Origin: Porodaedalea pini
Lineage: Eukaryota > Basidiomycota > Agaricomycetes > Hymenochaetales > Hymenochaetaceae
Reading direction: 5' to 3'
Length of the DNA stretch: 26,497 nucleotides
NCBI GenBank assembly: GCA_002794775.1
Contig: NBAY01000171.1
Coordinates: 1 to 26,497 of the forward strand
Part shown: positions 1 to 22,545 of the stretch, in pieces
How the letters are laid out: every line of letters starts with the position of its first letter
Numbering within the stretch: the stretch's first letter is position 1
Notes under the pieces: generated by a model
Told to the model about the DNA's origin: nothing
Databases searched by the model: none
What the model saw: only the letters and a program-made list of their open reading frames with translations
Made by a program: the position numbers and the translations under genes

Positions 1-87
1 GCATCGATTCTTGTAAATAATCCCGAACCGAGACAGCCGAGAGCTTAAGCTTGTTCCACATTAATAAGTTAGCTTTGCTCCCTCGAA

Positions 88-400
88 AGTCTGCTTGGGC
101 CAAGGGCCTCCTCAAGCCACATTCGCAGTGTCTTTACCTCGCTCTCAGTCGCCAGCTCTTGCCACTCCTCAGGCTCAGACACAGTCGCATTCGAGAACGT
201 CTTCGCAACTAGGAGGTTTCAAGGATGCAGTCGGTGTCAGGATTGCGAGCGGGCCAAGGGGCAGTGTTCCGCCCTCCAAGACGGGTACGTTATGCATTCC
301 CATCTTTCCTTGTTTAACCTTGTTCATCCTGTCTAACACGAATTCGCAGCAAATCCGATTAGTTTTGGTACGGTAAATGGCCCCGTGAACAATAAAACGA
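88..400 (+). pseudogene. eIF4G: eIF4G N-terminal fragment
   Basis: Low-complexity Ser/Pro/Gln-rich reading that resembles the disordered N-terminal part of basidiomycete eIF4G, the translation initiation scaffold that binds eIF4E and eIF4A. It runs from a GPPQ-containing stretch at about 100-115 through RSQSPALATPQ, across a GT-AG intron at 285-349 that joins in phase, to NPISFGTVNGP after the intron. A single-base frame break lies near position 97. The segment stops abruptly at about 400, where MUB1-like sequence begins, and eIF4G resumes at about 1476. The assignment rests on the ISFG-type motif and on the clear eIF4G piece downstream. Low-complexity sequence makes this less certain than the other fragments. 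Confidence 0.42.
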
Positions 401-1475
401 TTGTCCACCTCCTTCGCGCCCTTCCCCTCCGCCGCCTGAGAATCCATCGGCGATCTTTGGTCTGTCGCCCCCGGGCTTTCCACGTCCGGCGCTTGTGCCA
501 GCCCTGAACCCAAAGTCGTTCGACCGGCACGCCGCATACCGATTCTCCCTTGCATTCCAATGTGTAGTCAACATCAATGTGCGTGGCTCAGTGCCCATCC
601 GGAGTCGCGTCGTCCAGGCAGATACTCTCGAGGTCGTTGGGTTGCGTGTTGGAGGCATGGCTGGCGTCAGAAGGATTTGCTGTCGGGCCGAGCGCGAGTG
701 CGAGCGGCATACCACGCGAGACCGTGAACAGCGTCAGCAACGACGGCAGCAGCAATTAGAACAGCGTCAGCGCGAGCAGGCACAAGAACTCGTCAGACTG
801 CTCGCTGTCGAACAATCCCTTGTGAATGCCGAGGTGAGTCATCCATCATCTTTGCTATTGGCTGACTGATCTGAGGGCCTTTCAGGAGGAACAAAGCTTT
901 GCCACATAAGATGCTGAGACGTCCGTCTCGACTGACACGTTCTGCGAATGCGACGCCGTCTGGCTCAGGTACCCCAACAAGTACGGTCATCGTACCAGGG
1001 CGTGACAGATCTGGCACAGTCGTGGCGCGCCGAGTTTGGGACACACAGCCGAATGCACGCGAACAGACAACTGTGGGTGCGTCGATGGCGCGCTCTCTAA
1101 CAATTCGCGTCGGATGGTGGCAGAAGCGGCAACGCCCTCGACATCAACTTCGAGGCCTGACACAGAGACGGAGGATGATGGCGAGCCGGATGCGGATGCG
1201 GATGTGGATGTGATGTCGAGATGGAGACGACGACATCACACGACCAGGACATGGACAAAAACTTGCCCTCAGCCTCCTTTCACTTCCCCACGGACGTCGG
1301 ACCGTCGGAATCGTTGCAAACTCTCCCTCGCCAGCGGCGACCGGTGCAGCTGGTGTAGGTGTCGCGGGCACGTCGATGCGCTCGATGTCGATTTGAATGC
1401 ACATATCATTATCAACACGAATGCAGCGGACGATGACGTCGCAGATGGGATTGTTGCACTCGATCAAAACGTAAA
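401..1475 (+). pseudogene. MUB1: MUB1/samB-like fragment, copy 1
   Basis: Internal part of a protein resembling basidiomycete MUB1/samB, a MYND zinc-finger protein known in yeast as partner of the Ubr2 ubiquitin ligase and in Aspergillus for polarity. In changing frames it reads PPPPENPSAIFG, then NPKSFDRHAAYRFSLAFQC, then a Gln/Arg-rich coiled stretch (RQQRRQQQLEQRQREQAQEL) at about 735-795. An intron of about 50 nt begins at the gtgagt near 833. An acidic Thr/Asp-rich stretch follows at 1140-1220. The MYND finger is not present. The piece is about 90% or more identical by eye to 11919-12986, but copy 2 extends further on both sides. Both flanks here are eIF4G-like. Several frameshifts relative to copy 2 show that it is not functional. 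The gene name comes from remembered family motifs only. Confidence 0.55.
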
Positions 1476-2771
1476 ACGATGGACGACGTGCAGCAGTTCG
1501 GCTAGAGACGAAGAAGCAAGGTTGAAGAGAATTACGGGGAGCAGGTACAAAAGGCGAAAGAAGAGGAAGAGCGTCAGCGCAAGGAAGCGGAGGAAAAGCA
1601 ACGGTTCCAGAAGGCAGAGGAAGAGGCCAATGCTAAAGCAGAGGCGGAGGCTGAGAAGTCAAAGCCTGTTGCACTCGTGATCAAGTCGAAGAAAGAGGGT
1701 GAAGCGTCCTCAGCTGTATCCGACGTCCCACCTTCTACGTCGCCTGAAACATCCAAGAGACGGCCTATCCCTAGACCGCTCGAGCTCTCCTCAACTCACA
1801 AATCCATCCCTCAACCTCTCCCATCCGCCCTTGCTACCACCCGCCACATCCAAGATGTTTACTAGGTCCAGTATCCGGAAGGCATCAAGAGTCCCAAGCC
1901 AGAGCTTAACACGAACGCAAAGGATGGCAAGTTCCGGTTCGTATTTATTGTCTCGCTTTCTTTCCGTGACTAGCAAGCTAACGCTATATTTCTGCGATTA
2001 GCTACGACCGAGACTTCCTTCTCCAATTCATGTACGTGTGCAACGAAAAGCCGGACAATCTCCCTCTCTTGAGGCTATCGGTCTCGAGTCATCCGACCAA
2101 TCGCACTCTATGGGCCGGGGTGGCTCTGGACGCCGAGGTGTATCTGGTAGTATGGGCCGGCCATCTTCTACTGCTTCAAGGCAAGCATCGATTGGGCTTG
2201 GCATCGGTGCTTTGAACGGCTTCGGTGGCGAACCTGGTTCAGGCTTTGCGATGGGCAACTTCTCTGCACCGAACAAACTATCAAGTGAAGAGCGCTGCAT
2301 GCGCTCGACGTCGATGAGCGATAGGCCCGGTGGCCTTCCATTTGCAAGCGGGCGCCATCGCTATGGTTCGCTCTTCCAGTCAGGATGGTGCGGGCGCTTT
2401 GGGCAACAAGCGTACGCGTAGCAAACGTGGCGACTCAACACGCAACGAGTCGAACCGTATCAGCGCTTCTGCCAATCAGTTCAACACGAATGCTGCTTCC
2501 TCCGTCGAACCTGGCGCGCCGCTCGAGCAGTCTGCGAACCGCTGGGTCGCGGGGAGCGCGTCCAGGCGTGGGGCCTCGAATGACCCAGACTCACCCGAGA
2601 TCGTGGACAAGAAGGTCCGTTCGCTGCTTAACAAGCTCACTATGGAGAAGTTTGAGTCTATCTTAAACCAGATCATTGTGTGGGCAAACAAGAGTGAGAG
2701 CGAGAAGGATGGGTGTACGCTTATTCATTTCATCCGGCCTGTGTTCGAGAAGGCGACGGATGAGGCGGCTG
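1476..2771 (+). pseudogene. eIF4G: eIF4G middle region fragment
   Basis: Second eIF4G piece. It starts with a Glu/Lys/Arg-rich helix (about 1520-1665, KAEEEANAKAEAEAEKSKP) and passes through YPEGIKSPKPELNTNAKDGKF. After a GT-AG intron at 1937-2001 it continues with YDRDFLLQFMYVCNEKPDN, a Gly/Ser-rich stretch (GRGGSGRR), RTRSKRGD, and the start of the MIF4G domain ([16 protein letters not shown], then KSESEKDG and FEKATDEAA). This is the eIF4A-binding HEAT domain entry. The sequence stops a few helices in and changes to PRP8 at about 2771, in frame. Several local frame changes occur around 2040-2330. The order and motifs match eIF4G well, so the family is secure. The gene is truncated and fused, so not functional as eIF4G. 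Confidence 0.82.
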
Positions 2772-5271
<2,500 letters not shown>

Positions 5272-6608
5272 GTTGAAGGGAAGTGAATCCCGTTTGGCTT
5301 CAGGCATCGCACACTACCTCACTTTACGAAGGATGACTTCAGCCCAGAGGCGCGCGGTTTCGTGAGAAGTCGTATCTTCGTGGATTAACTCCGCAAGAGT
5401 ATTTCTTCCACGTTATGGCTGGTCGCGAAGATTTGATCGATACCGCTGTCAAGACGGCCGAGACTGATTATATTCAGCGTCGACTTGTAAAGGCACTTGA
5501 AGACGTGGCTGTCTGCTATGACGGGACTTGTGCGAAACTCACTGGGTGACCTGATCCAATTCGTGTATGGCGAGGATGGTATGGACGGTGCTTTTATTGA
5601 ATGGCAAACGATCAAAACGTTCGGTATCAATGATCGCGAGTTCGAACATCACTATCAGGTCGACGTCACTGACCCGAAGGGTGGATTCCTTTCTGGTGTT
5701 TTGCAAATCGGTATCGACGACTCATCCCTCGAGCTCTCGACGAGGAATACGACCGTCTTCATGAGGATCGTAAATTGCTCCGTGAATTCATTTTCCCGGG
5801 CCGTGACAATTCCGCTGTCCACTATCTTCCTGTCAACCTGAACCGCATCGTGCAGAACGCAACGCAGATTTTCCATATCGACCGCAGAAAGCCGAGCGAT
5901 CTGGAGCCGGTTTACATCATTGAGCATGTGCAGCAGCTGGCAGACCACCTCATCGTTGTGCGCGGCGACGATCTTTTAATAAAGGAGGCTGCCGAAAACG
6001 CTTCTGTTGCATTCCGCATGCACCTTCGGGCGACTTTTGCCATGCGTCCAGTCCTAGAGGAGTTCCATTCAACAGAGAAGCGTTTGACTGGGTCTTGGGC
6101 GAGGTGGAGATGAAGTTCAACCAGTCGGTCGCTCATCCGGGCGAGATGTGCGGCACACTCGCTGCTCAGTCGATTGGTGAGCCGGCGACGCAGATGACAC
6201 TAAATACCTTCCATTACGCTGGTGTTTCGAGTAAAAACGTCACGCTCGGGGTGCCGCATCTTAAAGAAATCATCGACGTCGCTGTGAATATCAAGACTCC
6301 GTGTACCTGGACCCAGAAATTGCTGCTGTCGACACAAGGGCCAAGTCGGTGCAAACAGAACTTGCGTACACATCGCTGCGTACCGTTACAGCGGCGGTTG
6401 AGATCTACTACGATCCTGATTCAAGTACGACGATCATTGAGGATGATAAGGAGTTTGTTGATGCATTCTTCGCCATCTCCGACGAGGAAATTGAGTCGGG
6501 TCTTCATCTTCAGTCGCCATGGTTACTTTGTCTTGAGCTCGGTCGCTCGAAGATGCTTGACAGGAAACTTACGATGAACTACATTGCTGGCCGTATCGCG
6601 GAAAGCTT
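5272..6608 (+). pseudogene. RPB1: RNA polymerase II largest subunit (RPB1) fragment, copy 1
   Basis: Internal third of RPB1, the catalytic largest subunit of nuclear RNA polymerase II. It covers the cleft and trigger-loop region: [16 protein letters not shown] at the start, then [85 protein letters not shown] (the trigger loop) and ending [15 protein letters not shown]. The trigger-loop wording identifies Pol II rather than Pol I or III. An in-frame TGA at 5284-5286, a frameshift near 5526, a deletion near 5735 and a frameshift near 6297 break it. The TGA and the 6297 change are also in copy 2. It lacks the active-site aspartates and the CTD heptads, which lie outside the captured part. It joins the CAP-Gly piece at GAAAGC/TTTGCC. 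Confidence 0.94.
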
Positions 6609-7348
6609 TGCCATTGCCAAAAATGCCATCTAAGGAAAATATTGACCCTGAAAATCCTCCCAATACAGGCAGTACATTGACGATTAAAGGGAAGGAGAAG
6701 GGGAAAGGGCAGGCGGACGCCATCATCGCAGTCGACAGATCTCTGCGATCGAGCGACAACGGATCAAATACAACTCTCGCTACATTGCGGCACAAGGAAT
6801 CGAATGACACCATTACCCTCAATCGAGTACCTGCGGGGGAGACAGCGTCTGCAGGCGAGACGGTCACGCTGCAACCCCGTTGTGCTACATTGGACATTGG
6901 CATTCCATGTATCATTACTTCAAAGCGGAAGTGGTTCCGTGCATTTGCCCGTTATATCGGTGAGGTTGAGGGTGAGAGCGGGCCATGGGTTGTTGTCGAG
7001 GTGCTCGTGGGCGATGATTGGGCAGACGATCAGCTCGATGGCCGCCAGTGGAATGACGGCTCGTGGGGTGGCGTGCGCTACTTCGACGTCGGGACTTTGG
7101 CATCGGATTGGGGCGACAACGAATGCATGACTCGCCAGCAACGCGTTGATTTGACGAATAACTATGGAACTAGCGTCATTAGTGGCTGGAAGAAGCGCGA
7201 GGGGGAGCAGCTCAGCGTTGACCGCAAGAAGCATTTCCGTAGCACGTCGCCATCAGTGTCGGATGTGTCGAACGTGGAGTATCAAGGTCTCTTTGTGAGG
7301 CCACAGCAGGTGCTGTATGTTGTAAATGCTGTCGGTTCGGACTTGTGA
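6609..7348 (+). pseudogene. CAP-Gly C-terminal end of a BTB/CAP-Gly protein, copy 1
   Basis: C-terminal end of an Agaricomycete-type protein with a CAP-Gly domain, a microtubule-tip binding fold. An uninterrupted frame starts upstream at 6584, inside RPB1 sequence, and runs to TGA at 7346-7348. The native part starts near KMPSKENIDPENPPNTGS. A Ser/Thr-rich linker follows, then DIGIPCIITSKRKWF, RYIGEVEGESGPWVVVEV, QWNDGSWGGVRYF (the CAP-Gly signature, with Trp before the usual NDG) and a C-terminal FVRPQQVLYVV. In family members I recall, this domain ends a protein whose N-terminal half is a BTB domain like the one at 9350-10640. This copy keeps a clean frame while copy 2 does not. It could be translated only as a headless chimera. 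Confidence 0.72.
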
Positions 7349-7606
7349 ATCTTGGAATATATTTAAGTTCAGATTCCTGCCCTTTTTCTTTTTCTTTCTT
7401 TCTTTCTTTTACCCTACTCCCATGTTTAGTCACTCTTTGCTCTGGGCAGATGCCCTCATCACCGAAATCACTTGTTGGCATGTTCATATTCCTCTCTTAT
7501 CTACTCAATCGGATCACTCTGGATTCAATTGCACCTTTTGGAGAATTTTTTAATCAGTTTTTGAATGCTGTCGGTTTTTTAGTTAGTACATTTGTGTTGA
7601 GTTTCT
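7349..7606 (+). other. 3' tail shared by both chains, with CTTT tract
   Basis: Non-coding sequence downstream of the CAP-Gly stop. It has a pyrimidine tract of repeated CTTT at about 7383-7408. It matches 16191-16432 closely and ends at TTTAGTTAGTA, after which the two copies part. It is probably the original 3' untranslated region and terminator of the BTB/CAP-Gly gene, carried along in the duplication. Confidence 0.6.
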
Positions 7607-7870
7607 GTACAAACGGCATTCTTGTGCCTCATGCAATAAGTTAGAAATCATTTTGGAGTATGTTAGCACACAGATGAGTTGTGCATTGCATTTCAATTGG
7701 ACATGTAGTCAGTGCTATAATAGTAATATAATGAAGGCATGATGAATAAGGCAATAATATGTAGTTATGTCACTAGAGTCCAACCAAGCTACCTAGAAGA
7801 GAACAATGACAAAAAGTAAGAATACAGACAATTGTAGAGAAACAAAGGATTCAACTATTTGTCTCTATGT
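7607..7870. other. AT-rich spacer, no gene seen
   Basis: About 265 nt of AT-rich sequence between the end of the duplicated chain and the first MITE. No frame of note, no repeat and no match to the corresponding place in the second chain, where a MITE sits directly at the end of homology. Confidence 0.5.
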
Positions 7871-7871
7871 A

Positions 7872-8063
7872 CTTGAGGTAGTGGGCCATTGGGATGGCAA
7901 GCTACAGTTACTGTTTTCTGAGTCTTTCATTCTATATGATTCATTTTATATGAGAGGACTAAAGCTTGAAAATTATACTAAAACATTATTCTCATTAGTG
8001 AATTATTTGATATTCAGTAAACAGTAATTGTAGCTTGCCATCCTAATGGCCCACTACCTCAAG
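7872..8063 (+). mobile_element. MITE, copy 1
   Basis: A 192-nt element with terminal inverted repeats of roughly 45 nt. The left tip CTTGAGGTAGTGGGCCATT is matched by AATGGCCCACTACCTCAAG on the right, and the inner part is AT-rich. It has no coding capacity. The left flank is TA and the right flank TT, so the TA target duplication seen around copy 2 is decayed or lost here. Its interior matches the reverse complement of 16433-16610, with an extra stretch of about 14 nt near 7930-7945. The inverted repeat length and TA target suggest a nonautonomous Tc1/mariner-like element. The superfamily is inferred. Confidence 0.9.
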
Positions 8064-8119
8064 TTTTAACAAGTCTGAACTTGAAACTCCTGAAACTTCT
8101 TGGTCAGTCCCCCTGGTGG

Positions 8120-8388
8120 TTACGCCTGACCACTTGCAAAATCCTGTGAGTCAACCACCTCATTGTCATTGTCTTCCTCCTCCACATGGTTCTCCACTGT
8201 TGACTTTTGAGTGTCTACGACTTCCTCAAATGCTGACTCCTTCATTGCGCCAAGTTCATCTGCAAAGGCATGGCAAACATCCAGTTCCATCATCCGGACC
8301 ACCCTCTGCATGATCTGTTTCGCCTGTGGATATGTGTTCTTAAAGTGCCCTGGCTGGCCACACAACCAACAGGCTCCCCATCATCACA
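8120..8388 (-). pseudogene. Gag-like zinc-knuckle remnant
   Basis: Minus-strand open stretch of about 90 codons beginning after a TGA and reading CWLCGQPGHFKNTYPQ, which is a retroelement CCHC zinc knuckle (C-x2-C-x4-H-x4-C) except that the last Cys position is Tyr. That would be a TGT to TAT change. A Met/Val/Glu-rich helix and an acidic tail (EEEDNDNE) follow. This is what remains of a nucleocapsid-type gag protein; no protease, reverse transcriptase or integrase is visible nearby. It lies between MITE copy 1 and the BTB fragment and is too short to assign to Ty1/copia or Ty3. Confidence 0.4.
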
Positions 8389-8446
8389 TTTCATTTATAG
8401 AGATGTCCATTGCTTGTCCAGCACCTCTGAAGGTTATGCTGGTCAC

Positions 8447-9240
8447 TGTTAGAACTCAAACTTTCCCCTTTTCTTTTATTTTCCTTTTTACCATTTCTTT
8501 GTTAGGATCTCAAGTGCGCATACTATTATTTCCTTTCTTCCATCGTCATCATCCCCATCGACGTCCCTTTCCCCCTCCCACACCGAACTCTTCCCTTTGT
8601 CGCTCGTTTGTTGATGTCACCCACTTATCAATCGCGAGACCCTTGCACGCGGTCGCAGGCGACGTCGTCCGCTCATTATTAATCACATTCCATGACGTTC
8701 CATCACATTCCATTTCCCAGGAACGTCATTCTCTTTATAGTAGTCGGGTCACACAGGTATTGAGTATATAGGTAGCTCGTTCACCTGTATTGTCCCTCAC
8801 CTCAGTATTCTTGGAATCCACTGCTGCTTACTCTTGACAACGTCGTCCGCGACACTTGTGCGTTTGACTCCTCCCCTCTTCGCTCTTGTTACGATTACTG
8901 AGTTTACGAAGTATCGTCTTTTGTTATGGGCAAAGTTAGGGAGCCCGATTTGGGTTTTTGTCAGCTTTTATAAGCTGATGGCATACCATATATGTTAATT
9001 TTGGACCCCTTTTCTGCTAAATTGAGCGGTGGCGATGAAGTCGTTCACTGCTTTTGTGGCTGTACAGTGCTCACTTTCTTCATCAACATATTTAATTTTA
9101 TTAAACCATCCAAATCTCAACCTTGAACCATGTAAAAAAACTTCAGACAAATCTCTATCTGTCTATGTATTTTTTGTAAAATAAAGTGGCCTGGTTGAAT
9201 TAAAAATCAGTCGAAAGCAAAGTTGACGACAGTGCCAACA
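8447..9240. other. Promoter-like or LTR-like non-coding stretch
   Basis: About 790 nt with no convincing gene. It starts TGTTAGAAC and ends GTGCCAACA, so TGTT...AACA ends are possible for an LTR. It contains a TATA-like TATATAGG at about 8764-8771 followed by CT-rich sequence, as in fungal LTRs or promoters. I find no second copy in the window and no flanking target duplication. It could equally be the upstream region of the BTB gene whose fragment begins just after it. Confidence 0.25.
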
Positions 9241-9252
9241 TGATCTCCAACC

Positions 9253-10644
9253 TCAGTGGGAGGCACCGTCGACGAGTCTGTCTCCTTCACCTTTCTCTTG
9301 GGATTTCTCTGCTTTTTTCTTTATCACACTACATCACTGCTTGTCTTGGTAGCCGTCCCGTCACAGCTGCCTGCCTGCCCAACTGCACTGCTCGAGGCAA
9401 CGAAGAGGTCGACAACAGCATGGCAAGAGGACCTCCAATCGCTCTTTCATCGCGCGAAGGATTGCTTCCCAGACGACGTCTGGGATCTAATGGGTGAGGA
9501 CGCGATGGACAAAGGCCGCAACGCGGACTCGGAGGTTCGGGGACATAAAGGTGAGCACAAGCGCAGAACCTACCACCTGTCCTTGAGACTAACAAATGCT
9601 AGCTATCATTTATGCTCGTGCACTACTCAGTTCCCAGGCGCACTATTTCTCGTTCCGCCCGACACCTATCGTGTCCCCACTTCCTTTCGCTGCCTCTCCG
9701 ACATTGTCACTTCCAATGCCGACAACATCTGCACACTCTCTCAACCTTGGCGTTGAGTTCCCCTACCGCCTCAATGTGCTCCACTTCACCTTCCCAATTC
9801 TGGCCTATCTCCCCTGCGCCCTCTGTAATCGGCTCCCTCACGCGCATATCTCTCAACCATAATCCCGTGTTATTCACCAACGAGCTCGAGTATCTCTATA
9901 CAGGAAAGGGATTTGGGGATGTGTTTGAGTTTTTGTTCGATGCGAATGAGGAGGGCCGGGAAGGCGACGCCAATGTGGAAGAGGCACGCGTCGACAAGCT
10001 TCGCGAGGACCTTGTGTTCGTGTGGAGGTCTCGTCTGTATTCTGACGTTCGCATTGAACTACACAGCGATATGCCAACAATAGGTGCTCCTTCCAATGAA
10101 GAAGAGACGACCGCCGTCTTCTGCTCACATCGATTTTTTGTTCTTGTAACGCGTGCACCGTATTTCTGCGATCAACTCATCACCTATGGTCTCAAGAATA
10201 CCCCTGGCCCCGGCGAGCTCACGACCCTTTGCCTTCCCTCACCTCCCTTTGTTCCTCCAGCGCTGCACTTTTCCTTAGGATACTCATACACCGAAACGCT
10301 CAGCTTCAGCGACCGTCCATATGACTTGGACACCGCTTTCGCTATCCTGTGCTCCGCGAACTATCTTCAATTGCAGACGCTCCATGACAAGGTGCAGGCA
10401 CGCCTCGTGCAGGAGATTCTCCATGGGCTCTTCCACGCTTTCCTCGAATTTGCTGAGTATGAACGTATCACTGGAGGTCGCTGGGGCACAGGTGGGTCTC
10501 GCTGCCGCCAGTGTGCACGTCGCGCACCGCATACGCTCGCGTTTTCCGTGCGTCCAGACGTGCAGAACACATACCTTGAGCGTGGCGTGCGGCGCGCCCT
10601 TGTTGGTCTTTTCGGAGAGGGCTGGTGCATGAAGTGGTTACCAC
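9253..10644 (+). pseudogene. BTB-domain N-terminal fragment of a BTB/CAP-Gly protein
   Basis: N-terminal half of a BTB (POZ) domain protein; BTB domains mediate dimerisation and often cullin-3 binding. The early part reads WQEDLQSLFHRAKDCFPDD and ends GHK. A GT-AG intron (about 9551-9601) joins to AIIYARAL, the usual start of the buried BTB strand. After a frame change it continues LFTNELEYLYTGKGFGDVF, LREDLVFVWRSRLYSDV, LGYSYTETLSFSDRPYDLD, LCSANYLQLQTLHDKVQ, LEFAEYERITGGRWGTGG and a Cys pair region (CRQCARR), ending ALVGLFGEGW. Family members known to me carry a CAP-Gly end, so this and 15479-16190 are probably the two ends of one gene whose middle has been replaced. It joins P4-ATPase at about 10645. 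Confidence 0.7.
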
Positions 10645-11430
10645 TCTTTCGCGTAAGTCCATTGGCGTCGTCGATTGGAATGGGCGGGCACCTGGTACGG
10701 CACGTTGGGAACGCACGCTCTCGAATCGGAGACATTGTTCTGTTGCGCAATAACGATCAAGTGCCGGCCGACATCATTGTCCTTTCTACTTCGGAAGAGG
10801 ATGGCTTATGCTATTTGGAGACGAAGAACCTGGATGGCGAAACGAATCTGAAGCCTCATCGGTCATTGAAGGCGACATCATCTCTGCAGAGCGAGGAAGA
10901 CATTGAGCATGCAAGTTTCATCCTGGACTCCGAACCGCCGCACGCTAATCTGTACCTTTACAATGGCGTGCTGAGATACCGCGAGCACGAGGCGGGGGCA
11001 GAGAAAGTCGAGCCGGCGACCATCAACGAGATGCTATTCCGTGGATGTTCAATGCGAAACACAACGTGGATTATTGGCTTAGTTGCATTCACTGGCGCGG
11101 ACATGAAGATTATGTTGAACAGTGGGAGCACGCCTAGTAAACGGAGCAAAATCGAACGGGAGACGAACTTTTCTGATTCTTATGTGTCTTGCGACGGGCA
11201 TTGCTAATGGCGTTATGGACAGTAAGTCGGATACTAGTGTACATTTCTTTGAACAGGGTAGCGATCCGTCGAGCTCTTCGGCCGTTAATGCAATCGTTAC
11301 TTTCGTGTGAGTGTCTTTATGGTTCCCTCTGCGATCGCTTACTGATCTTTGACTGTAGGTCTTGCTTGATTGCATTTCAGAACATCGTTCCGAGCTCTCT
11401 TTACATCTCCATCGAAATCGTGAAGACTAT
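10645..11430 (+). pseudogene. P4-ATPase (phospholipid flippase) fragment
   Basis: Piece of a P4-type ATPase, the family that moves aminophospholipids to the cytosolic leaflet (yeast Dnf1/Dnf2 type). It covers the actuator domain and the next membrane segment: SIGVVDWNGRAPGTARWE (frame-shifted), IGDIVLLRNNDQVPADI, CYLETKNLDGETNLKP with the family DGET motif, FILDSEPPHANLYLYNGVL, MLFRGCSMRNTTWIIGL, FTGADMKIMLNSG, and after a frame break LILMCLATGIANGVMD, FFEQGSDPSSSSAV. A GT-AG intron (about 11308-11358) precedes SCLIAFQNIVPSSLYISIE. The phosphorylation motif DKTG lies outside the piece. A deletion of a few codons with frameshift near 11169 and the abrupt change to NOT1 after IVKTI show that it is dead. 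Confidence 0.9.
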
Positions 11431-11750
11431 CCTGGCGCCGGAAACTCGGAGCCTACATTCACTGTCATCAGCTATTCCTCTGACATTGAAGCAGAGGTCG
11501 ACGGCATTTTAAAGCAGATGTATGGCGAACAGATCACGATCGACCAAGTCATCATCGTGCTACAATGCAGTAAGAAATCTACTAACCGCGCGACCACGAA
11601 ATCTTCCCTTGCATGCACCACTTCCTCTTCGACGAATCCAAATTCTTCCAGACGTTCTACCTGCCGTGCGAACTCGCGATGACGGGCCATCTATTCGGAT
11701 CTATCATACAACAACAGCTAGTTGACTATATCCCCTTCGGTATTGATCTG
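11431..11750 (+). pseudogene. NOT1: CCR4-NOT scaffold NOT1 fragment
   Basis: Short piece of NOT1 (yeast Cdc39), the scaffold of the CCR4-NOT mRNA deadenylase complex. In frame it reads SSDIEAEVDGILKQMYGEQ, then TIDQVIIVLQ. After a frame break it continues HHFLFDESKFFQTFYLPCE and LAMTGHLFGSIIQQQLVDYI. These blocks belong to the HEAT-repeat MIF4G-like middle of NOT1. The normal stretch between VLQ and the HHFLF block is shifted out of frame by a small indel near 11590. Flanks are P4-ATPase on the left and MUB1-like on the right, so this is a captured internal piece of about 100 codons. Confidence 0.88.
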
Positions 11751-13160
11751 TTCTGCTCATCGCCGCCGCCAGTGTGCTCGACTGACTGCTCATCGTACAC
11801 AGCGCTCGATACTACGTCTCCCTTGCCATTGCTGAACTCGCTCACGCACCTCACATATCTCATTTCGACTTCACCACGCATCCGAGAGATCCTCACGTGC
11901 GACGGTGGCCTCGAGTGCTTGTCCTCCTCCTTCGCGATTTCTGCCTCTCCCCTCCGCCGCCTGAGAATCCATCGGCGATCTTTGATCTGTCGCCCTCGGG
12001 CCTTCCACGTCCAGCACTTGTGCCAGCCCTGAACCCAAAGTCGTTCGACCGGCACGCCGCCTACCGATTCTCCCTTGCATTCCAATGTGTGGCCAACATC
12101 GGTGTGCGTGGCTCAGAGCTCATACGGAGCCGCGTCGTCCAGGCGGGTACTCTCGAGGTCGTTGGGTGCGTGTTGGAGGCATGGCTGGAGTCAAAAGGAT
12201 TTGTTGTCGGGCCGAGCACGAGTGCGAGCGGCATACCACGCGAGACCCGTGAACAGCGTCAGCAACGACGGCAGCAGCAATTAGAACAGCGTCAGCGCGA
12301 GCAGGCCCAAGAACTCGTCAGACTGCTCGCTATCGAACGATCCCTTGCGAACACCGAGGTGAGTCATCCATCATCTTTGTTATTGGCTGACTGATCTGAG
12401 GGCCTTTCAGGAAGAACAAAGCATTGCCACATTGGATGCTGAGACGTTCGTCTCGACTGACACGTCTGCGAATGCGACGCCGTCTGGCTCAGGTACCCCA
12501 ACAAGTACGGTCATTGTACCAGGGCGTGACAGATCTGGCAAGTCGTGGCGCGCCGAGTTTGGGACACACAGCCGAATGCACGCGAGCAGGCAACTGCGGG
12601 TGCGTCGATGGCGCGCTCTCTAACAATTCGCGCCGGATGGTGGCAGAAGCGGCAACGCCCTCGACATCAACTTCGAGGCCTGACACAGAGACGGAGGATG
12701 ATGGCGAGCCGGATGCGGATGGTGATGTCGAGATGGAGACGACGACATCACACGACCAGGACATGGACGAAGACTTGCTCCCGCCTCCTTCACTTCTCCA
12801 CGGACGTCGGACCGTCGGAATCGTTGCAGACTCTCCCTGACCAGCGGCGACCGGTGCAGCCGATGTAGGTGTCGCGGGTACATCTGATGCGCTCGATGTC
12901 GATTTGGATGCACATATCATTATCGAGACGAATGCAGCGGACGATGACGTCGTAGATGGGATTGTTGCACTCGATCAAAACGTAAACAATTACCTCGCTA
13001 TGGGTGCCCCGCCAGGTGCTCCCGGTGCTATCGATGCGACGCCGCGCACACGCACAAATACTCTCACGTTGAACACACGGAACATCAACCTACCGCGCGA
13101 ACACCATCATCACCACGATCCGCACGTACATGGCCGTGAGGAGCTTACGCCGCGCGCGGT
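11751..13160 (+). pseudogene. MUB1: MUB1/samB-like fragment, copy 2 (long)
   Basis: Longer copy of the MUB1/samB-like piece. It begins upstream of the copy 1 limit with LDTTSPLPLLNSLTHLTYL and TSPRIREILTCDGGLE. After a frame break near 11917 it continues LLLRDFCLSPPPPENPS, NPKSFDRHAAYRFSLAFQC, RSRVVQAGTLEVVGCVLEAW, the Gln/Arg-rich coil and an intron at about 12359-12410. The acidic DADGDVEMETTTS stretch, then AMGAPPGAPGAIDATPR and a His-rich HHHHHDPHVHG run follow. It ends at GELTPRAV-like coding sequence fused at GCTCCCATCCCATT to PRP8. The extra sequence at both ends relative to 401-1475 gives the best view of the source gene. No MYND finger is included. The name is inferred from remembered motifs. 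Confidence 0.6.
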
Positions 13161-14166
13161 GCTCCCATCCCATTCCCGTAAGATCCAAATAACTACGCCT
13201 TTCAATAGCTCTCACTGATGTTTCCATACAGTCCCCTTTCGTACAAGCATGACGCGCACAGCGTCAAAGGTCGTCTTAACCAATCTCAGCGTGAGGAGCT
13301 TGCTCTCATTGAGCAGGCGTATGACAATCCACGCGAATGTATGTTTTTTTTCTAATTGGTCGTAGGGTGTAGCTAATCGATTCGCGTGCAGGTCTGTCTA
13401 GGATCAAGCGTCTCTTGCTCGCTCGGCGAGCCTTCAGAGAGGCAGGCATTGAGTTCTTCGACACATATGGCAAGCTCATCCCCTGCTACGACATCGAACC
13501 CGTTGAGAAGATTACAGACACATATCTTGACCAGTTCTTATTCTTTGAGGCTGACAGGCGCGGGTTATTCCCGGCATGGATCAAGCCTGCGGACATTGAA
13601 CCTCCTCCCCTTCTGGTGTACAAGTGTTGTCAGGGTATCAATAACTTGACGGACATCTGGGAGACAAGCGAGGGCGAATGCGTAGTGATGATGGAGACCG
13701 TACTGTCGAAGGTCTACGAAAAGATTGACTTGACCCTTCTCAACCGTTTGCTTCGTCTTATTCTCGACCATAATCTTGCGGACTATATCACAGCGAATAA
13801 TAACTGTGTTTTCACCTACAAAGATATGGCACATACGAACACATACGGGATGATCCGCGGTCTGCAGTTCTCTGCCTTTGTCTTCCAATATTATGGTCTT
13901 GTCCTCGATCTTCTCATCCTCGGCTTGCAACGCGCAAGTGAAATGGCGGGTCCCCCACAACTGCCCAACAATTTCCTGCAGTACCGTGATTCTGCGACCG
14001 AGACACGCCATCCAGTCCGTCTCTATTTTCGTTATGTTGAACGTTTGCATATTTTATTCCGCTTCACCGCCGAGGAATCACGCGACCTTATACAACGTTA
14101 CCTCAACGCGAATCTGGATCCAACAAACAACAACATTATTGGGTATAACAACGAGAGGTGTTGGCC
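13161..14166 (+). pseudogene. PRP8: PRP8 fragment, copy 2 (short)
   Basis: Shorter PRP8 piece matching 4307-5271 of chain 1. It starts at the GCTCCCATCCCATT word next to an intron (donor gtaag at about 13178). It then reads [19 protein letters not shown] with the same missing block of about 15 codons as chain 1, keeps the intron ending about 13391, and continues [15 protein letters not shown]. It retains [18 protein letters not shown], lost in chain 1, then [52 protein letters not shown] and the ERCWP block. The frame is open from 13415 to 14284, better preserved than in chain 1. It joins RPB1 after TGTTGGCC. The upstream 1.5 kb of PRP8 present in chain 1 is absent. Confidence 0.92.
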
Positions 14167-15478
<1,312 letters not shown>

Positions 15479-16190
15479 CCATTGCCGAAAATGCCATCTA
15501 AGGAAAATATTGACCCTGAAGATCCTCCCAATACAGGCAGTACATTGACGATTAAAGGGGAGGGGAAGGGGAAAGGGCGGATGGATGCCATCATCGCAGA
15601 CGACAGATCTCTGCGATCGAGCGACAACGGATCAAATACAACTCTCGCTACATTGCGGCACAAGGAATCGAATGACACCATTACCCTCAATCGAGTGCCT
15701 GCGGGGGAGACGGACATGCTGCAACCCCGTGGCGCTACATTGGACATCGGCATTCCATGTATCATTACTTCAAGGCAGAAGCGGTTCCGTGCGTTTGCCC
15801 GTTATATCGGCGAGGTTGAGGGTGAGAGCGGGCCATGGGTCGGTGTCGAGATGCCCGTGGGTGATGCTTGGGCAGACGATCAGCTTGAGGGCCGCCAGTG
15901 GAATGACGGCTCATGGGGTGGCGTGCGCTACTTTGGCATCGGAATGGGGTGACGACGAATGCATGACCAGCCGGCAATGCGTTGATTTGACGAATAACTG
16001 TGGAACTAGTGTTATTAGTGGCTGGAAGGGCACGAAGCGCGAGGGGGAGCAGCTCAGCGTTGACCGCAAGAAGTGTTTCCGTAGCAGTTCGCCGTCAGTG
16101 TCGGACATGTCGAACGCAGAGTATCGAGGTCTCTTTGTGAGGCCACAGCAGGTGCTGTATGTTGTAGATGCTGTCGGTTCGGGCTTGTGA
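15479..16190 (+). pseudogene. CAP-Gly C-terminal end, copy 2
   Basis: Second copy of the CAP-Gly end. From the same joint with RPB1 it reads KMPSKENIDPEDPPNTGS, TLDIGIPCIITSRQKRF, RYIGEVEGESGPWVGVEMP and QWNDGSWGGVRYFGI. It then hits a premature stop at about 15950, because 14 nt present in chain 1 (between two ACTT words near 15933) are missing. The downstream frame resumes SEWGDDECMT, then GTKREGEQLSVDRKKCFRS and FVRPQQVLYVVDAVGSGL with TGA at 16188-16190. Apart from that deletion it is closer to family consensus than copy 1 (VGVE rather than VVVE). It is probably the 3' end of the same gene as the BTB fragment at 9253. Confidence 0.72.
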
Positions 16191-16432
16191 ATCTTGGAAC
16201 ATATTTAAGTTCGGATTCCTGCCCTTTTTCTTTTTCTTTCTTTCTTTCTTTTACCCTACTCCCATGTTTAGTCACTCCTTGCTCTGGACAGATGCCCTTA
16301 TCACTGAAATCACTTGTTGGCATGTTCATATTCCTCTCTTGTCTACTCAATCATATCACTCTGGATTCTCGAATTGCACCTTTTGGAGAAATTTTTAATC
16401 AGTTTTTGAATGCTGCTGGTTTTTAGTTAGTA
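16191..16432 (+). other. 3' tail of chain 2
   Basis: Non-coding sequence matching 7349-7606, with the same CTTT tract (about 16224-16252). Homology to chain 1 stops exactly at the TA where MITE copy 2 begins. On the far side of the MITE the sequence is unrelated to the downstream flank of chain 1. Confidence 0.6.
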
Positions 16433-16610
16433 CTTGAGGTAGTGGGCCATTAGGATGGCAAGCTATGATTACTGTTTACTGAATAGTAAATAATTCACTA
16501 ATGAGAATAATATTTTAGTATAATTTGCAAGCTTTAGTCCTCTCATATAAAATGAAAGACACAGAAAACAGTAATTGTAGCTTGCCATCCCAATGGCCCA
16601 CTACCTCAAG
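16433..16610 (-). mobile_element. MITE, copy 2
   Basis: A 178-nt element of the same family as 7872-8063, opposite in orientation by its internal sequence. Inverted tips are CTTGAGGTAGTGGGCCATT and AATGGCCCACTACCTCAAG, and it is flanked by TA on both sides (16431-16432 and 16611-16612), a TA target duplication. It sits exactly where homology between the two chains ends and 8 nt from the stop of the transposon-like frame on the minus strand. Confidence 0.92.
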
Positions 16611-16617
16611 TAGCTCT

Positions 16618-17939: not shown

Positions 17940-18700
17940 CATTATGCTGCTTTATGTGACCATGACGCTGTGGATCCCGCATTGATCTACTTCTGGATCA
18001 CGACGCTCGCGCTGTGCTTGGCGCCGTTCATTTTCAACCCCCACCAGTTCTCGTTCGCGGACTTCATCATTGACTACAGAGAGTGCCTGCGCTGAGTGTC
18101 GCGTGGCAATGTGCGCGCACATAAGAACACGTGGATCGGATACTGCAGGCTGTCGCGTACGATGATCACAGGATACAATAAGAAGAAGCTGGGCCAGCCG
18201 TCAGACAAATCGACGGGCGGAGACACACCGCATGCAGGCTGGCGCACCATCTTGCTTTCTGAGATCGTGTTCCTGATCTGCATGGCGATTTTGTTCATTA
18301 TCGCATAGCTTTTCATATAGTCTTTCCCGCAGGTCAGCGGAAAGGAGAACACGAGCACCCTCGTGCGATTTGCGATTGTGAGCTTGGGACCGATTGTGTG
18401 GAATGCGGTGGTGCTGCTTGTGTTGTTCTTGATATCGCTGTTCTTGGGTCCGATGCTTGATACGGTAGTGCCGAAGTTTGGATCGGTTATGGCGTTCTTT
18501 GCGCATGCACTAGCGCTCGTGGGTATGGTTGGATCCTTTGAGTTCCTTGTAAGCATTTTTTTTCTTGATACTTCATCGATGATGTCTGATCTGGCTTCTG
18601 GACAATGGAAATATTGAACACGTGGTGTCTTTGTTGAACGTTTCCCTGAGCATTATTGCGCGCCGAGCCAATTTCCACCAGTTGATGATTTGGAGTGGCT
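17940..18700 (+). pseudogene. FKS1: 1,3-beta-glucan synthase (FKS1) C-terminal-region fragment
   Basis: Piece of the GT48 glucan synthase catalytic subunit, a plasma-membrane enzyme that makes cell-wall beta-1,3-glucan. Blocks in order are [115 protein letters not shown] and LGPMLDTVVPKFGSVMAFF. A GT donor follows SFEFL at about 18550. This is part of the C-terminal membrane-segment cluster. It carries a one-base loss near 17975, a TGA in place of Trp before SRGN (about 18094), and two TAG stops at about 18307 and 18319. Neither end of the gene is present, so this is a decayed internal piece like those upstream. Confidence 0.92.
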
Positions 18701-19264: not shown

Positions 19265-21909
19265 TCATGCTGCCGGCGGCGGAGTGACAAGCATGTCCCT
19301 CGCCATCCGTGCAGCAGTTGCGCTTCCAGTGCAGGTCGTTGTCGGGAAAGGCAGGCCAAGCGCCATCCAGGCAGGTGGACTAGAGTCATACAACACTTTT
19401 TCAGCACAGAAGTCCAGTTCACATTAGATAAATGCCACTCACTAGCTGCACCCAACAACCTCTGTCACGCCGCTCGCTGTATCCTGCGGATCCGCCCAGC
19501 CGTTCCCAAGACTAACTGTCTTCGCTGCGGCCGTAAACGTGTCTGGCGGGAGCGTCGACAGCCCGACCGTCGACGTGTACGTTGGGAGCAAGCTCACAGC
19601 ACCCGTCGCACCGCTGATCGTCGTCGGTGGCCACGCAGTGAAGCTTTCGCGCACATCAGGCGATATTGTACCCGCCCCCGGTCCACCCGTCTGCCACGCG
19701 GAGAACGAACCGTCGAACTGAGTGCCGGTGACGCTGAGGCTCGCGCACATGCCCGTTGCAGAGCGCGGGTCATCCGGCATCCAGCCGTTCTCGAGGCCGA
19801 GCTGGTATGACCACAGCGGCGCCTGCACGGAGTTCGTCTCAGAGGAGTTCCCGATCTGTCCGTGTTGTGAGAACGTGGTTGTTGCTACGGAGAACAATGA
19901 CTGACCTTCCACGTCCAAAAGAAATAGTTTTGAAGCGCTGTCCATATTATGAGAACGTGGTTGTTGCTGCAGAGGACAATGACTGACCATCCATACTAGC
20001 GAGTGCGAAGTCCCTGAGACCCGCTTTGAGCGTATCGTTCCATTGCGTGTAGTCATTCCAAAAGTCACAGCCGCCCGGGTAGCTTGACGTACTGCCCACG
20101 CCATTGAGGTACAGCCCACAGTCATTGATTCCGTTACTGAATTCGCCCGCAATAGTAACACCAAATTGAATCTGGCTAGAGATAACAATATTAGAAAAGA
20201 AAGTCAGCAGATACGTAGACGCTCGCACCTCTGGTTCATAGTAAGTCCCCATGACAAGCAAGCCTTCTGTGGCCAAGCTCCTATTGGATCTAAGTCCTGA
20301 GCGGCGCCGCCAAATGCGAAGTACGGGTGCGTATCGAGATTGATACGGTCTGAACCAGGGAAGAAGTTTGCCCAATCGGAAAGACTCTGGAAACCATCAT
20401 GAATGCTGATAAATGGGCCTTTCCCTTCACCGATGCCAGTGATGTTACGTATCATGTCATATGCGGCAAGGTAACTGAAAAGCAAATTAGCAATGCTAAT
20501 AGGAAAAGAAGTAGCAGAAAACGTGCAAATGCGATATGTTATCCTGCCCAATTATTCCTGTCAGTGCTGAAGCGAAGGTCAAATTCAATGATGATAGCGG
20601 GGAAAAATAGGAGAAAAGCGCGTACCTTCATTGATGATTCCGAACATCGGTATGAGATCCGTGTACTCTGGCTGTGAGATGAACTCCGTGAAGACTCTAA
20701 TATATTCAAGCATACGCTCCGCGTTCGCAAAGCCCATGATGCCGTTCATAAAATTAATCTGGCCAGATTTTCCCGAGTGATTGTACCCGTTCTGCGAACC
20801 GGGGGCAGTGTGCAGGTCGAGGTTGACGCGTAACCCATACTTGCGCGACCAGCGAAGGACGCGCAGGATGTACTTCCAGCAGGTGCGCGCGAGGAAGGGC
20901 TCTGGTGCGGAGGCTGTGTCCCATTTATCGATAGCCCAGAAGGGAACGGGCAGGCGGATCCAGTTGAGTCCTGCCCCTGCGATCTGTGCGATGTCTTGCT
21001 CTGTGCTGCATCGAAGAAGAAAAATCAGCTAGTGTAAGATTGAGAAGAGAGTGAGACACACATAAAAGTATTGTAGTGGTCTTCAAGCTGTGAGAGCCCA
21101 CCGCCAGGAGAAGTGTCCGCAGCCATCGCCATTGATAGCGTCCATTCATCAACGACGGTGTTTGACCCATTCTGATACTTTTGGAAAAGCGCCGGGACGA
21201 TGAATGGCTCAAGAACAAAGAGCCCGCCCAGGTTAGTACCCGCGATCTTGTCGACACCCCATGTCCAGCTCGAGTTTAGCGGCGGCGTCCAACTGTTCGG
21301 CTGTGCATTGTTGTTGAACGGATCCGAAGGGTCGTTGACCCAGAATCCACCAAATTTATTGCTATAAATGAACGTCTGGCCATCTTCTGTTGTGACCATC
21401 GACCCATCCCCGCCGGTGATAGCTCCCTTGCTGCTTGAGCTCCCCGAGCTCCCCGAGCCGCCTGCACTGCTAGATCCGTTCTTCTTCCCAAGGATGACAC
21501 CTAGAGGCACCGCAACGGCAGCGGCGACAATAAGGGCAACAATGCCCACGATCCACCAGACACGCTTGCGTCCCACGGCAATGCCCATCTCCTTTTCCTC
21601 GCCATCGACGCCTCGCTCTGTTTTTGAGCCGGCGAGTGCCGCGCCGGCAGCTGCAAGGGGCGCGGCTGCAGTCTCGTCGGCATCATTGGACAGCACGGAA
21701 TCGTGGGGGGAATCCATCGTGAGCGATGGAGATAACGAAGAGAACCGCCGTGGGTTTGGCGGCATGAGCTGCTCATTGCCAAGAAACGCACTCGACTCCG
21801 ATGGACTCAGACTCGGAGACGCAGTGCTATCCGGTCCGGGTGTCGCAGGCGTGCTGGCGGAGCCCTGCTGGTCCTCGAACAAGTTGTTCGTCGAGTTGCG
21901 TACCGACAT
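19265..21909 (-). CDS. Glucan 1,3-beta-glucosidase, type II membrane GH5 enzyme
   Basis: Exo-beta-1,3-glucanase of glycoside hydrolase family 5, exgD-like, releasing glucose from cell-wall beta-1,3-glucan outside the plasma membrane. I place eight exons: 21909-21062, 21005-20626, 20566-20527, 20474-20229, 20175-19988, 19937-19906, 19855-19443 and 19379-19265. All phases agree and give 753 residues. Residues 1-117 are Ser/Pro-rich and cytosolic, ending GRKR. A membrane anchor spans about 118-140 (WWIVGIVALIV), followed by a Gly/Ser linker. The catalytic domain has IAQIAGAGLNWIRLPVPFW, RVNLDLHTAPGSQNGYNHSG, FGIINE with proton donor Glu409, THPYFAF, and VTIAGEFSNG with nucleophile Glu516, then APLWSYQLGLENGWMP. 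The last exon supplies YPPAW...PTTTC, the usual family ending; the TAG at 19442-19444 is read only if the final intron is retained. One intron has a GC donor, and two others are near-identical. Confidence 0.93.
19856..19905 (-). repeat. Intron 6 of the GH5 gene, near-copy of intron 5
   Basis: 50-nt GT-AG intron between WTWK and IGNSSE. It matches intron 5 at 44 of 50 positions, all differences being C/T on the gene strand (positions 13, 17, 19, 39, 42, 44). The match does not extend into the flanking exons. Confidence 0.93.
19938..19987 (-). repeat. Intron 5 of the GH5 gene, near-copy of intron 6
   Basis: 50-nt GT-AG intron after SMD, starting gtcagtcatt and ending ggacag like intron 6. Only a 32-nt exon (19937-19906, ALQNYFFWTWK) separates the pair. 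Confidence 0.93.
20475..20526 (-). other. GC-AG intron (intron 3) of the GH5 gene
   Basis: The only way to join ALTGIIGQDNISH to YLAAYDMIR in phase is a donor reading CATTT/gcacgt and an acceptor cag/TTACC, which gives HFYLAAYD, the family wording. This makes a 52-nt intron with a GC instead of GT donor. A GT at gttttc 4 nt downstream would break the frame. Confidence 0.75.
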
Positions 21910-22545
21910 GGTGGTGATAGAGCACGTATGTTGCCGTGGAGCGTGGGCAGGATGCGCTGGCCATGAGCAGGCCGAAAGAAGAGCTAGCTAAAATACGACT
22001 GCTTCAAATCCCACAGGATCTATAAGTCCCGCTTTTGTTTACCAATGAGATAAAGGTGCATACCGTCATAGCTTCTACCCCTCTGCATTCTCAGCGGCCA
22101 TTGATGCTTCCTATCGTCCGTTTGTATAGATGGAAGTTGGAGAGCTTTTCTTGCAATCTTGCTGCCGCATCTAGCGTTTCGTCGGATGTTGAGTGCACCA
22201 GATCAGGATGGAGAGATCTGCTAGGTCTTGTTATATCTTGTATCCTGAGTTTGATTGAAAAATACGTCGATTGCATTTCCAAACGCGTGACGATACATTC
22301 CCGAATGCGGCTGCCTTATCGGAGTTTAGACTTCTCTTCATCCTTCATGCTGATCCGCGCACTTCATTTCAACAACACTTCTGCTCATATCTATCTTCTC
22401 TACGCTCTTATCTTCGGCTCGTCAAGCCGAGTGCTGTTTGTTTTTCGAAGTTCTCACACAGACTATTCCTGGCCCATGCGCCGCCTTCGCTATTCACTCA
22501 ACTCGGCCGTCGAGAAAAAGGGTTGGGTTAGCGGCCTAAAACTAT
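21910..22545. other. Upstream region of the GH5 gene, no gene seen
   Basis: Promoter-side sequence of the minus-strand glucosidase. A + strand frame at 22035-22562 covers much of it but has no recognisable motif or family-like composition, so I do not call it. No clear operator or TATA assigned. Confidence 0.4.

Follow-up and report, generated by a model that had tools for sequence, protein, structure and literature searches.

Analysis of a contig of the basidiomycete Porodaedalea pini (NBAY01000171.1 of assembly GCA_002794775.1, here C171; 26,497 nucleotides, analyzed whole and referred to below as the window) revealed a patchwork of host gene pieces which very probably represents a complete transposable element with ends of the Helitron2 type (element 2) and a relative that lacks its front (element 1), both likely moved by rolling-circle transposition through a Rep-helicase encoded elsewhere in the genome and filled with cargo by internal repair. 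The genome comprises 53.3 Mb in 201 contigs, designated by C and a number, from which 20 stretches around copies were fetched and compared with the window. Self-comparison of the window paired positions 401-1475 with 11919-12986 (92.6%) and 4306-7589 with 13160-16433 (91.0%). The patchwork, which an earlier note on this DNA had taken as one locus at 88-16432, is real, yet it consists of two elements rather than one chain, with the PRP8|RPB1 joint in common, and between them they are built from parts of six or more host genes (Table 1).

Element 2 was detected on eight other contigs (C143, C106, C1, C7, C41, C26, C75, and C133) with 98.99-99.65% identity to the window; the right tip was the same in all eight copies and the left tip was exact in seven, C133 being a variant whose match to the window begins at 8893. 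On C106, C1, and C41 the match spans 8888/8889 to 16611/16613, and a T at the left or right edge can be assigned to either element or host, while C26 and C75 have the same outer borders with a match that is broken internally (with 0.9 kb extra in C75). Among the fetched copies the left tip TTAYGATTACTGAG was preceded by 11 different flanks, and all 19 palindromes of 120 bp or more in the fetched stretches and the window have a T directly after the right tip GGCCCACTACCTCAAG. The exact left and right tips occur 104 and 172 times in the genome, respectively, and their reversed controls zero times each. For the 59 left tips located on contigs with a full list of right tips (drawn from 101 of the 104), a same-strand right tip was present within 16 kb in 40 cases, compared with 15 when the strand was flipped. 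A tandem of four left tips spaced 25 bases apart was also seen at C77:170607-170700, as were further candidate element starts of another type, TGGAAGTGTGATTCTGACACTTA or near variants, with T before them and differing flanks, at L017 (~9280), L020 (~5748), L034 (~2139), and in a C128 strip.

Regarding the termini, element 2 has the repeat TACGATTACTG one base from its 5' edge and the inverted counterpart inside its right end, followed by a hairpin whose predicted fold over the last 40 nt (-8.9) is stronger than that of simple shuffles (-3.5 +/- 2.1). In Helitron2 elements (Bao and Jurka, PMC3627910) the 5' repeat lies 0-2 bp from the tip and the 3' repeat ~20-30 bp inside the 3' end, right before a hairpin. 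The ends of the element are of the Helitron2 type, because an asymmetric terminal inverted repeat combined with a 3' hairpin is the pattern that defines this group, and insertion without target-site duplication was found in addition at one site. This site is that of a relative with the same tips on C48, the insertion-site sequence of which also exists elsewhere without the element: 34 of 40 scored rows (from 1038 candidates) cross it uninterrupted, and comparison of the empty CCATAG (CCA|TAG; three copies read) with the filled CCA-TTACG...CTCAAG-TAG revealed neither target-site duplication nor base loss at this one insertion. An element start at TT or at T fits this comparison alike; a T^T target is ruled out by the single T of the empty site, and the TT insertion by which Helentrons are recognized was not seen at this sole empty site read.

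The earlier note had left the transposon ends, and with them the mechanism, unnamed; with their definition here, the ends prove to be neither the 5'-TC and CTRR-3' of canonical Helitrons (Helitron1), in place of which the borders carry TTACG and CTCAAG(T), nor plain terminal inverted repeats. Carriage of the pieces by a Pack-type DNA transposon with terminal inverted repeats (TIRs) and a DDE transposase would agree with the gathering of gene pieces that is typical of such elements and with the TIR-like palindromic tail, but it is very unlikely, as the tips are not mutual inverted copies and the empty site read has no target-site duplication. Another mover that makes no such duplication, for example a tyrosine-recombinase Crypton, seems equally improbable: Cryptons likewise lack long inverted repeats. 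Against them stand the asymmetric repeat and 3' hairpin of the Helitron2 pattern (PMC3627910) and the presence of Rep-helicase genes near the same gene pieces.

Five cargo pieces (PRP8, RPB1, P4-ATPase, NOT1, and eIF4G) have source loci on separate contigs with 88-93% DNA identity. The PRP8 gene on C12 extends beyond the captured part in both directions, with PRO8NT ahead of it and the U5_2 and U6 domains behind it, and C5 encodes a full RPB1 domain 7 within a 1207-aa open frame; the sequence read on C71 and C3 was limited to short stretches. The two matches of eIF4G on C33 are inverted copies of each other adjoining the two best MIF4G matches of the genome, and the source of this piece probably lies there. 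Many further MIF4G rows with frames of ~360 residues were noted in the genome, together with a distinct dispersed family containing an eIF4G piece, 26 rows of which start alike at the equivalent of window position 2257 (e.g., C114:63620, C44:46394, C31:80136). Among the 41 rows obtained for the 40 best of 78 candidates, one 92% match, on C71, covers exactly the P4-ATPase block. Its assignment to the P4 type follows the earlier note and sequence motifs.

Pfam domains of PRP8 (PROCN, 9e-42 and 2e-103; RRM_4, 4e-45 and 7e-46), of RPB1 (domain 6, 2e-42 and 5e-67; domain 5, 1e-25 and 7e-36), and of CAP-Gly (1.6e-6 and 3e-8) were detected in the window. Thus, the same-strand internal gene pieces that had been read from the letters are borne out by Pfam for PRP8, RPB1, CAP-Gly, and NOT1 and by the two C33 matches for eIF4G, while the P4-ATPase piece scores below the Pfam cut-off (19.5 vs. 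28.1 bits) but finds backing in the C71 match. The MUB1-like label remains that of the earlier note, the Pfam scan having returned zero matches for the block of element 2 and for 396-869 in element 1; the block itself recurs in both elements. The abrupt joints are equally real: at PRP8|RPB1 the window passes from the sequence of the C12 gene to that of the C5 gene, with the identical joint in elements 1 and 2. Of the checks that had been proposed, alignment to parental loci and a search for other chains with the same joints gave positive results, the former for the five pieces above and the latter with element 2 on nine contigs with identical joints, and the view of this locus as a gene-fragment collector is supported.

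Because an intron is retained in the PRP8 fragment, the cargo was copied from host DNA and not from mRNA. Genome-wide, a single match to RPB1 domain 7 (RPB1_7) is full, whereas the 63 other rows are partial and do not extend past position 83 of 136, and the simplest reading is one capture followed by spread. A protein spanning the PRP8-RPB1 joint matched PRP8 relatives in other fungi (560, of which 120 were listed), and the RPB1 part was absent in the eight read by eye. The host pieces in the window all read in the direction of the element; if orientation were free, the chance of this for seven genes (the MUB1-like one included) would be ~1.6% (2 x 0.5^7), a value that is suggestive only, the pieces being non-independent. 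A subtelomeric repeat was rejected as the defining feature, TTAGGG arrays (39 matches; C6, C44, C88, C129, C186) being present on none of the contigs whose copies were fetched; on C44 an RPB1 piece was observed ~2 kb from such an array (C44:394754, C44:396714).

Table 1. Elements, ends, and host gene pieces in the window (identities refer to the loci named).
Feature	Position	Strand	Evidence
Element 1, left end missing (contig begins inside)	1..8064	+	Relative of element 2, shared palindromic tail
MUB1-like block (label of the earlier note), element 1	401..1475	+	
eIF4G fragment, element 1	1479..2774	+	91% to C33:45102-46330 and C33:77589-78814
PRP8 fragment, element 1	2775..5272	+	93.2% to C12, 2585 columns
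RPB1 fragment, element 1	5270..6608	+	92.2% to C5
3' part of BTB/CAP-Gly gene, element 1	6752..7345	+	tblastn
Palindromic right end of element 1	7870..8064	+	
Element 2, complete, 7.72 kb	8889..16611	+	Copies on other contigs
Left (5') terminal region, tip TTAYGATTACTGAGTTTAC	8889..9281	+	Different left flanks; genome tip count
5' asymmetric terminal inverted repeat, 11 bp	8890..8900	+	Local alignment to inside of right end
5' part of BTB/CAP-Gly gene, element 2	9379..10628	+	tblastn: Sparassis P0243 residues 8-391
P4-ATPase fragment	10630..11436	+	92% to C71:171893-172733; Pfam E1-E2_ATPase 7e-4
NOT1 fragment	11429..11745	+	88% to C3:1910318-1910635; CNOT1_TTP_bind PF16417 2e-13
MUB1-like block (label of the earlier note), element 2	11919..12986	+	92.6% to 401-1475
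PRP8 fragment, element 2, intron kept	13160..14167	+	91.8% to PRP8 on C12
RPB1 fragment, element 2	14165..15476	+	89.7% to RPB1 on C5
3' part of BTB/CAP-Gly gene, element 2, frame broken once	15620..16187	+	tblastn: Sparassis P0243 residues 585-778
Palindromic right end of element 2, 180 bp, 3' tip on each arm	16431..16611	+	
Subterminal 3' copy of asymmetric inverted repeat, 31 bases in from right tip	16569..16579	-	One mismatch in window
3' hairpin GCCAT-CCCA-ATGGC	16584..16597	+	Fold of right end, directly downstream of 3' repeat

The BTB and CAP-Gly pieces, previously counted as separate genes, are by their protein matches two parts of one gene: a joined BTB and CAP-Gly query recovered 340 proteins, and both domains were present in 8 of the 120 listed (770-796 residues), including proteins of Plicaturopsis, Sparassis, Postia, and Heliocybe, with the domains of Sparassis P0243 confirmed. 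The named best relatives are from mushroom-forming fungi, and a gap of intron size is retained in the 5' part at 9550-9601. Since this gene, which frames the cargo, is of unclear importance, the earlier statement that nearly every piece derives from an essential gene has to be softened. All other cargo of element 2 lies between the two parts, and the 3' part is the last piece ahead of the right tip. Portions of the absent middle were found at 50 genome loci (the native gene not being told apart among them); 24 of these have a left tip on the same strand no more than 5 kb upstream, compared with 1 when the strand is flipped. Because middle parts thus recur near same-strand left tips, many elements carry more of the BTB/CAP-Gly gene, and in element 2 other pieces have taken the place of its middle.

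How Helitrons gather gene pieces is debated, the alternatives being end bypass and internal filler repair. In one alternative account, the pieces were gained serially at the 3' end of the Helitron2-type elements by end bypass, in which the process runs on to another terminator. According to PMC5148889, end bypass has been confirmed with a reconstructed bat Helitron, and the same palindromic 3' end closes chains at different points here, as recruited terminators would; bypass would add pieces on the 3' side, whereas the 3' end of the BTB/CAP-Gly gene is the last cargo, and this account is therefore unlikely, if still to be reckoned with. Internal break repair, argued for an insect Helitron as the filler-DNA model (PMC6544945), is favored over capture at the 3' end because foreign pieces sit between two parts of one gene, and the overlaps at the joints (CCG at PRP8|RPB1, ATCC at P4|NOT1), though short, fit this model.

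Regarding the enzyme of transposition, the Rep domain Helitron_like_N gave 10 rows at 8 loci of the genome; DUF6570 was present in two of the three Rep proteins scanned and PIF1 was detected downstream on C54. The Rep proteins have 196 relatives, those named among the 120 listed being mostly from mushroom-forming fungi. By coordinate comparison, PRP8 pieces lie within 12 kb of Rep at seven of the eight loci (C54, C128, C5, C37, C79, C77, and C105), in opposite orientation at six of the seven, the exception being C77; where C54 and C128 were read, the PRP8 piece is upstream of Rep and opposite to it. The host pieces of the window thus keep the single orientation emphasized in the earlier note, to which the Rep-helicase genes, relative to nearby PRP8 pieces, mostly run counter. 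These genes would be the movers of the elements. A palindromic element of ~860 bp (CAGCC...GGCTG between TTA and TAA) was also observed as repeated insertions, and in arrays, in or beside the Rep-helicase genes on C54, C128, and C77.

Under rolling-circle transposition with internal repair, movement would start with a Rep nick at the 5' tip, after which one strand would be copied through to the 3' hairpin and pasted beside a T. The first cargo would have been a nearly whole BTB/CAP-Gly gene taken into an element, later breaks within it would likely have been mended by copying pieces of P4-ATPase, NOT1, PRP8, RPB1, and eIF4G, and every new patchwork would then have multiplied via transposition. 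A bolder and tentative proposal, which we consider possible without expecting it, is that the captured gene could be a standing docking site in a fungal Helitron2 lineage, where breaks would time and again be filled with sense-strand segments of highly expressed housekeeping genes; capture would then be internal and repair-coupled, perhaps transcription-coupled, and the palindromic double 3' end would let nearby sequence be cut into new elements.

Element 1 matches C143 (through 8937, 99.65%) and C106 (through 8387, 99.73%) including the flank on its right side, and its copies in the window, C143, and C106 may represent one insertion because the match continues past the right tip. No left end was seen in the window or on C143, and the three near-identical copies share flanks, so that mobility of element 1 in its own right is putative. 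Of the 172 right tips, the first 100 listed include 74 that pair into 37 palindromes with both tips exact.

A number of observations weigh against rolling-circle movement with internal repair. At the ends, the 3' repeat is perfect in just four of nine copies, with one mismatch in the other five; the 3' hairpin is weak when folded over the last 60 nt (-8.9 vs. shuffles -6.2 +/- 2.4), and the predicted 5' stem that includes the 5' repeat (-5.4) is inside the shuffle range (-4.1 +/- 2.0). Empty sites were obtained for one insertion only, the other three in the same query having yielded none, and some copies have one flank in common. Neither a right tip within 16 kb for 19 of the 59 left tips nor an exact left tip close by for 25 of 57 RPB1 fragment loci and 26 of the 50 BTB/CAP-Gly loci was found, and the joint overlaps are short enough for chance. 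As its position differs between chains, the palindrome may be a separate unit that has lent its tip to the elements as a 3' end; it also adjoins Rep-helicase sequence at C79 and C77, where insertion or rearrangement would serve as well. The portions of C54 and C128 that were read contain no Rep-helicase element with both tips, and none was read end to end, and for this reason the role of the Rep-helicase as mover is one that we infer. Finally, the flanks of 8889-16611 in the window are on the left as in C143 and on the right as in C7.

This last point extends into the element, where the window mostly agrees with C143, C1, and C41 at sites up to 12353 (the exceptions 10252 and 10317 agreeing with C7) and mostly with C7, and at many sites also with C106, from 13281 onward (the exception 14374 agreeing with C143); site 12481 matches neither group, and the switch between copy types falls between 12353 and 13281 at most diagnostic sites. 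The window contig is therefore a mosaic of two insertion loci, which recombination between copies or misassembly may have produced; C1 is also composite, with a left flank like that of C41 and a right flank like that of C143. Chimeric assembly, which the earlier note had named as grounds for abandoning its patchwork, applies in part: the contig joins two loci, but the existence of the elements is unaffected because copies on other contigs back them. An origin of the chain itself in faulty assembly or in a single template-switch event would accord with the mixed flanks, the internal switch, and the identical starting base of C106 and C171, and it is the least credible of the alternatives, element 2 being present ninefold on nine contigs with identical joints and RPB1 fragments at 57 loci.

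Outside the elements, the decayed C-terminus of a 1,3-beta-glucan synthase lies in three adjacent pieces just past element 2 at 17973-18450 (+; PF02364 3e-15, 5e-10, and 1e-4, the last under the cut-off), and a likely glycosyl hydrolase family 5 gene was detected at 20585-21028 (-) inside 19442-21987 (-; PF00150 0.004, under the cut-off).

Compared with known systems, the elements resemble Helitron2 (PMC3627910), for which a 5' T, a 5' hairpin, some elements with the Rep-helicase in opposite orientation, and some with duplications are reported, in repeat placement, 3' hairpin, 5' T, and, for the putative mover, opposite orientation of the Rep-helicase, and differ from this group in the 180-bp palindromic 3' end, the large host-gene load, and a 5' hairpin at chance level. 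Subterminal inverted repeats, a 3' stem loop, and an unmodified target are shared with Helentrons/DINE-1 (PMC4067079), which differ in their TT target and in an endonuclease domain, not found in the Rep parts scanned here, which do not span the whole protein. FoHeli of Fusarium oxysporum (PMC5148889) likewise has fungal Helitron2-type ends, near-identical copies, and an ambiguous terminal T; its paper gives 27 putative captures, yet no evidence of an important role for capture, whereas host pieces fill the element here. HELPO1 and HELPO2 of Pleurotus ostreatus (PMC4289320) are also basidiomycete Helitrons with a Rep-helicase, HELPO1 with one to four added genes of unknown origin, but they have CT[A/T]G 3' ends, and their authors report no evidence for carriage of P. 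ostreatus gene fragments.

Single captures in fungi include that of xanA in Aspergillus nidulans (told in PMC6544945) and that of a TET/JBP gene by an Agaricus bisporus Helitron2 (PMC12730594), one gene each in these accounts, compared with the series of unlinked gene pieces described here; no fungal Helitron with a comparable host-gene load was found among the titles and abstract starts listed in searches of open-access papers. The present elements thus bear on the two fungal Helitron papers that report little host-gene capture (PMC4289320, PMC5148889), and dozens of related elements whose sources and ends are established, together with the split frame gene, would make the order of capture reconstructable. 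In their cargo they resemble maize helA and helB (PMC3288121), which are described with 0-12 gene fragments per element, acquired stepwise from unlinked genes, and which differ in their CTAG 3' ends and plant host.

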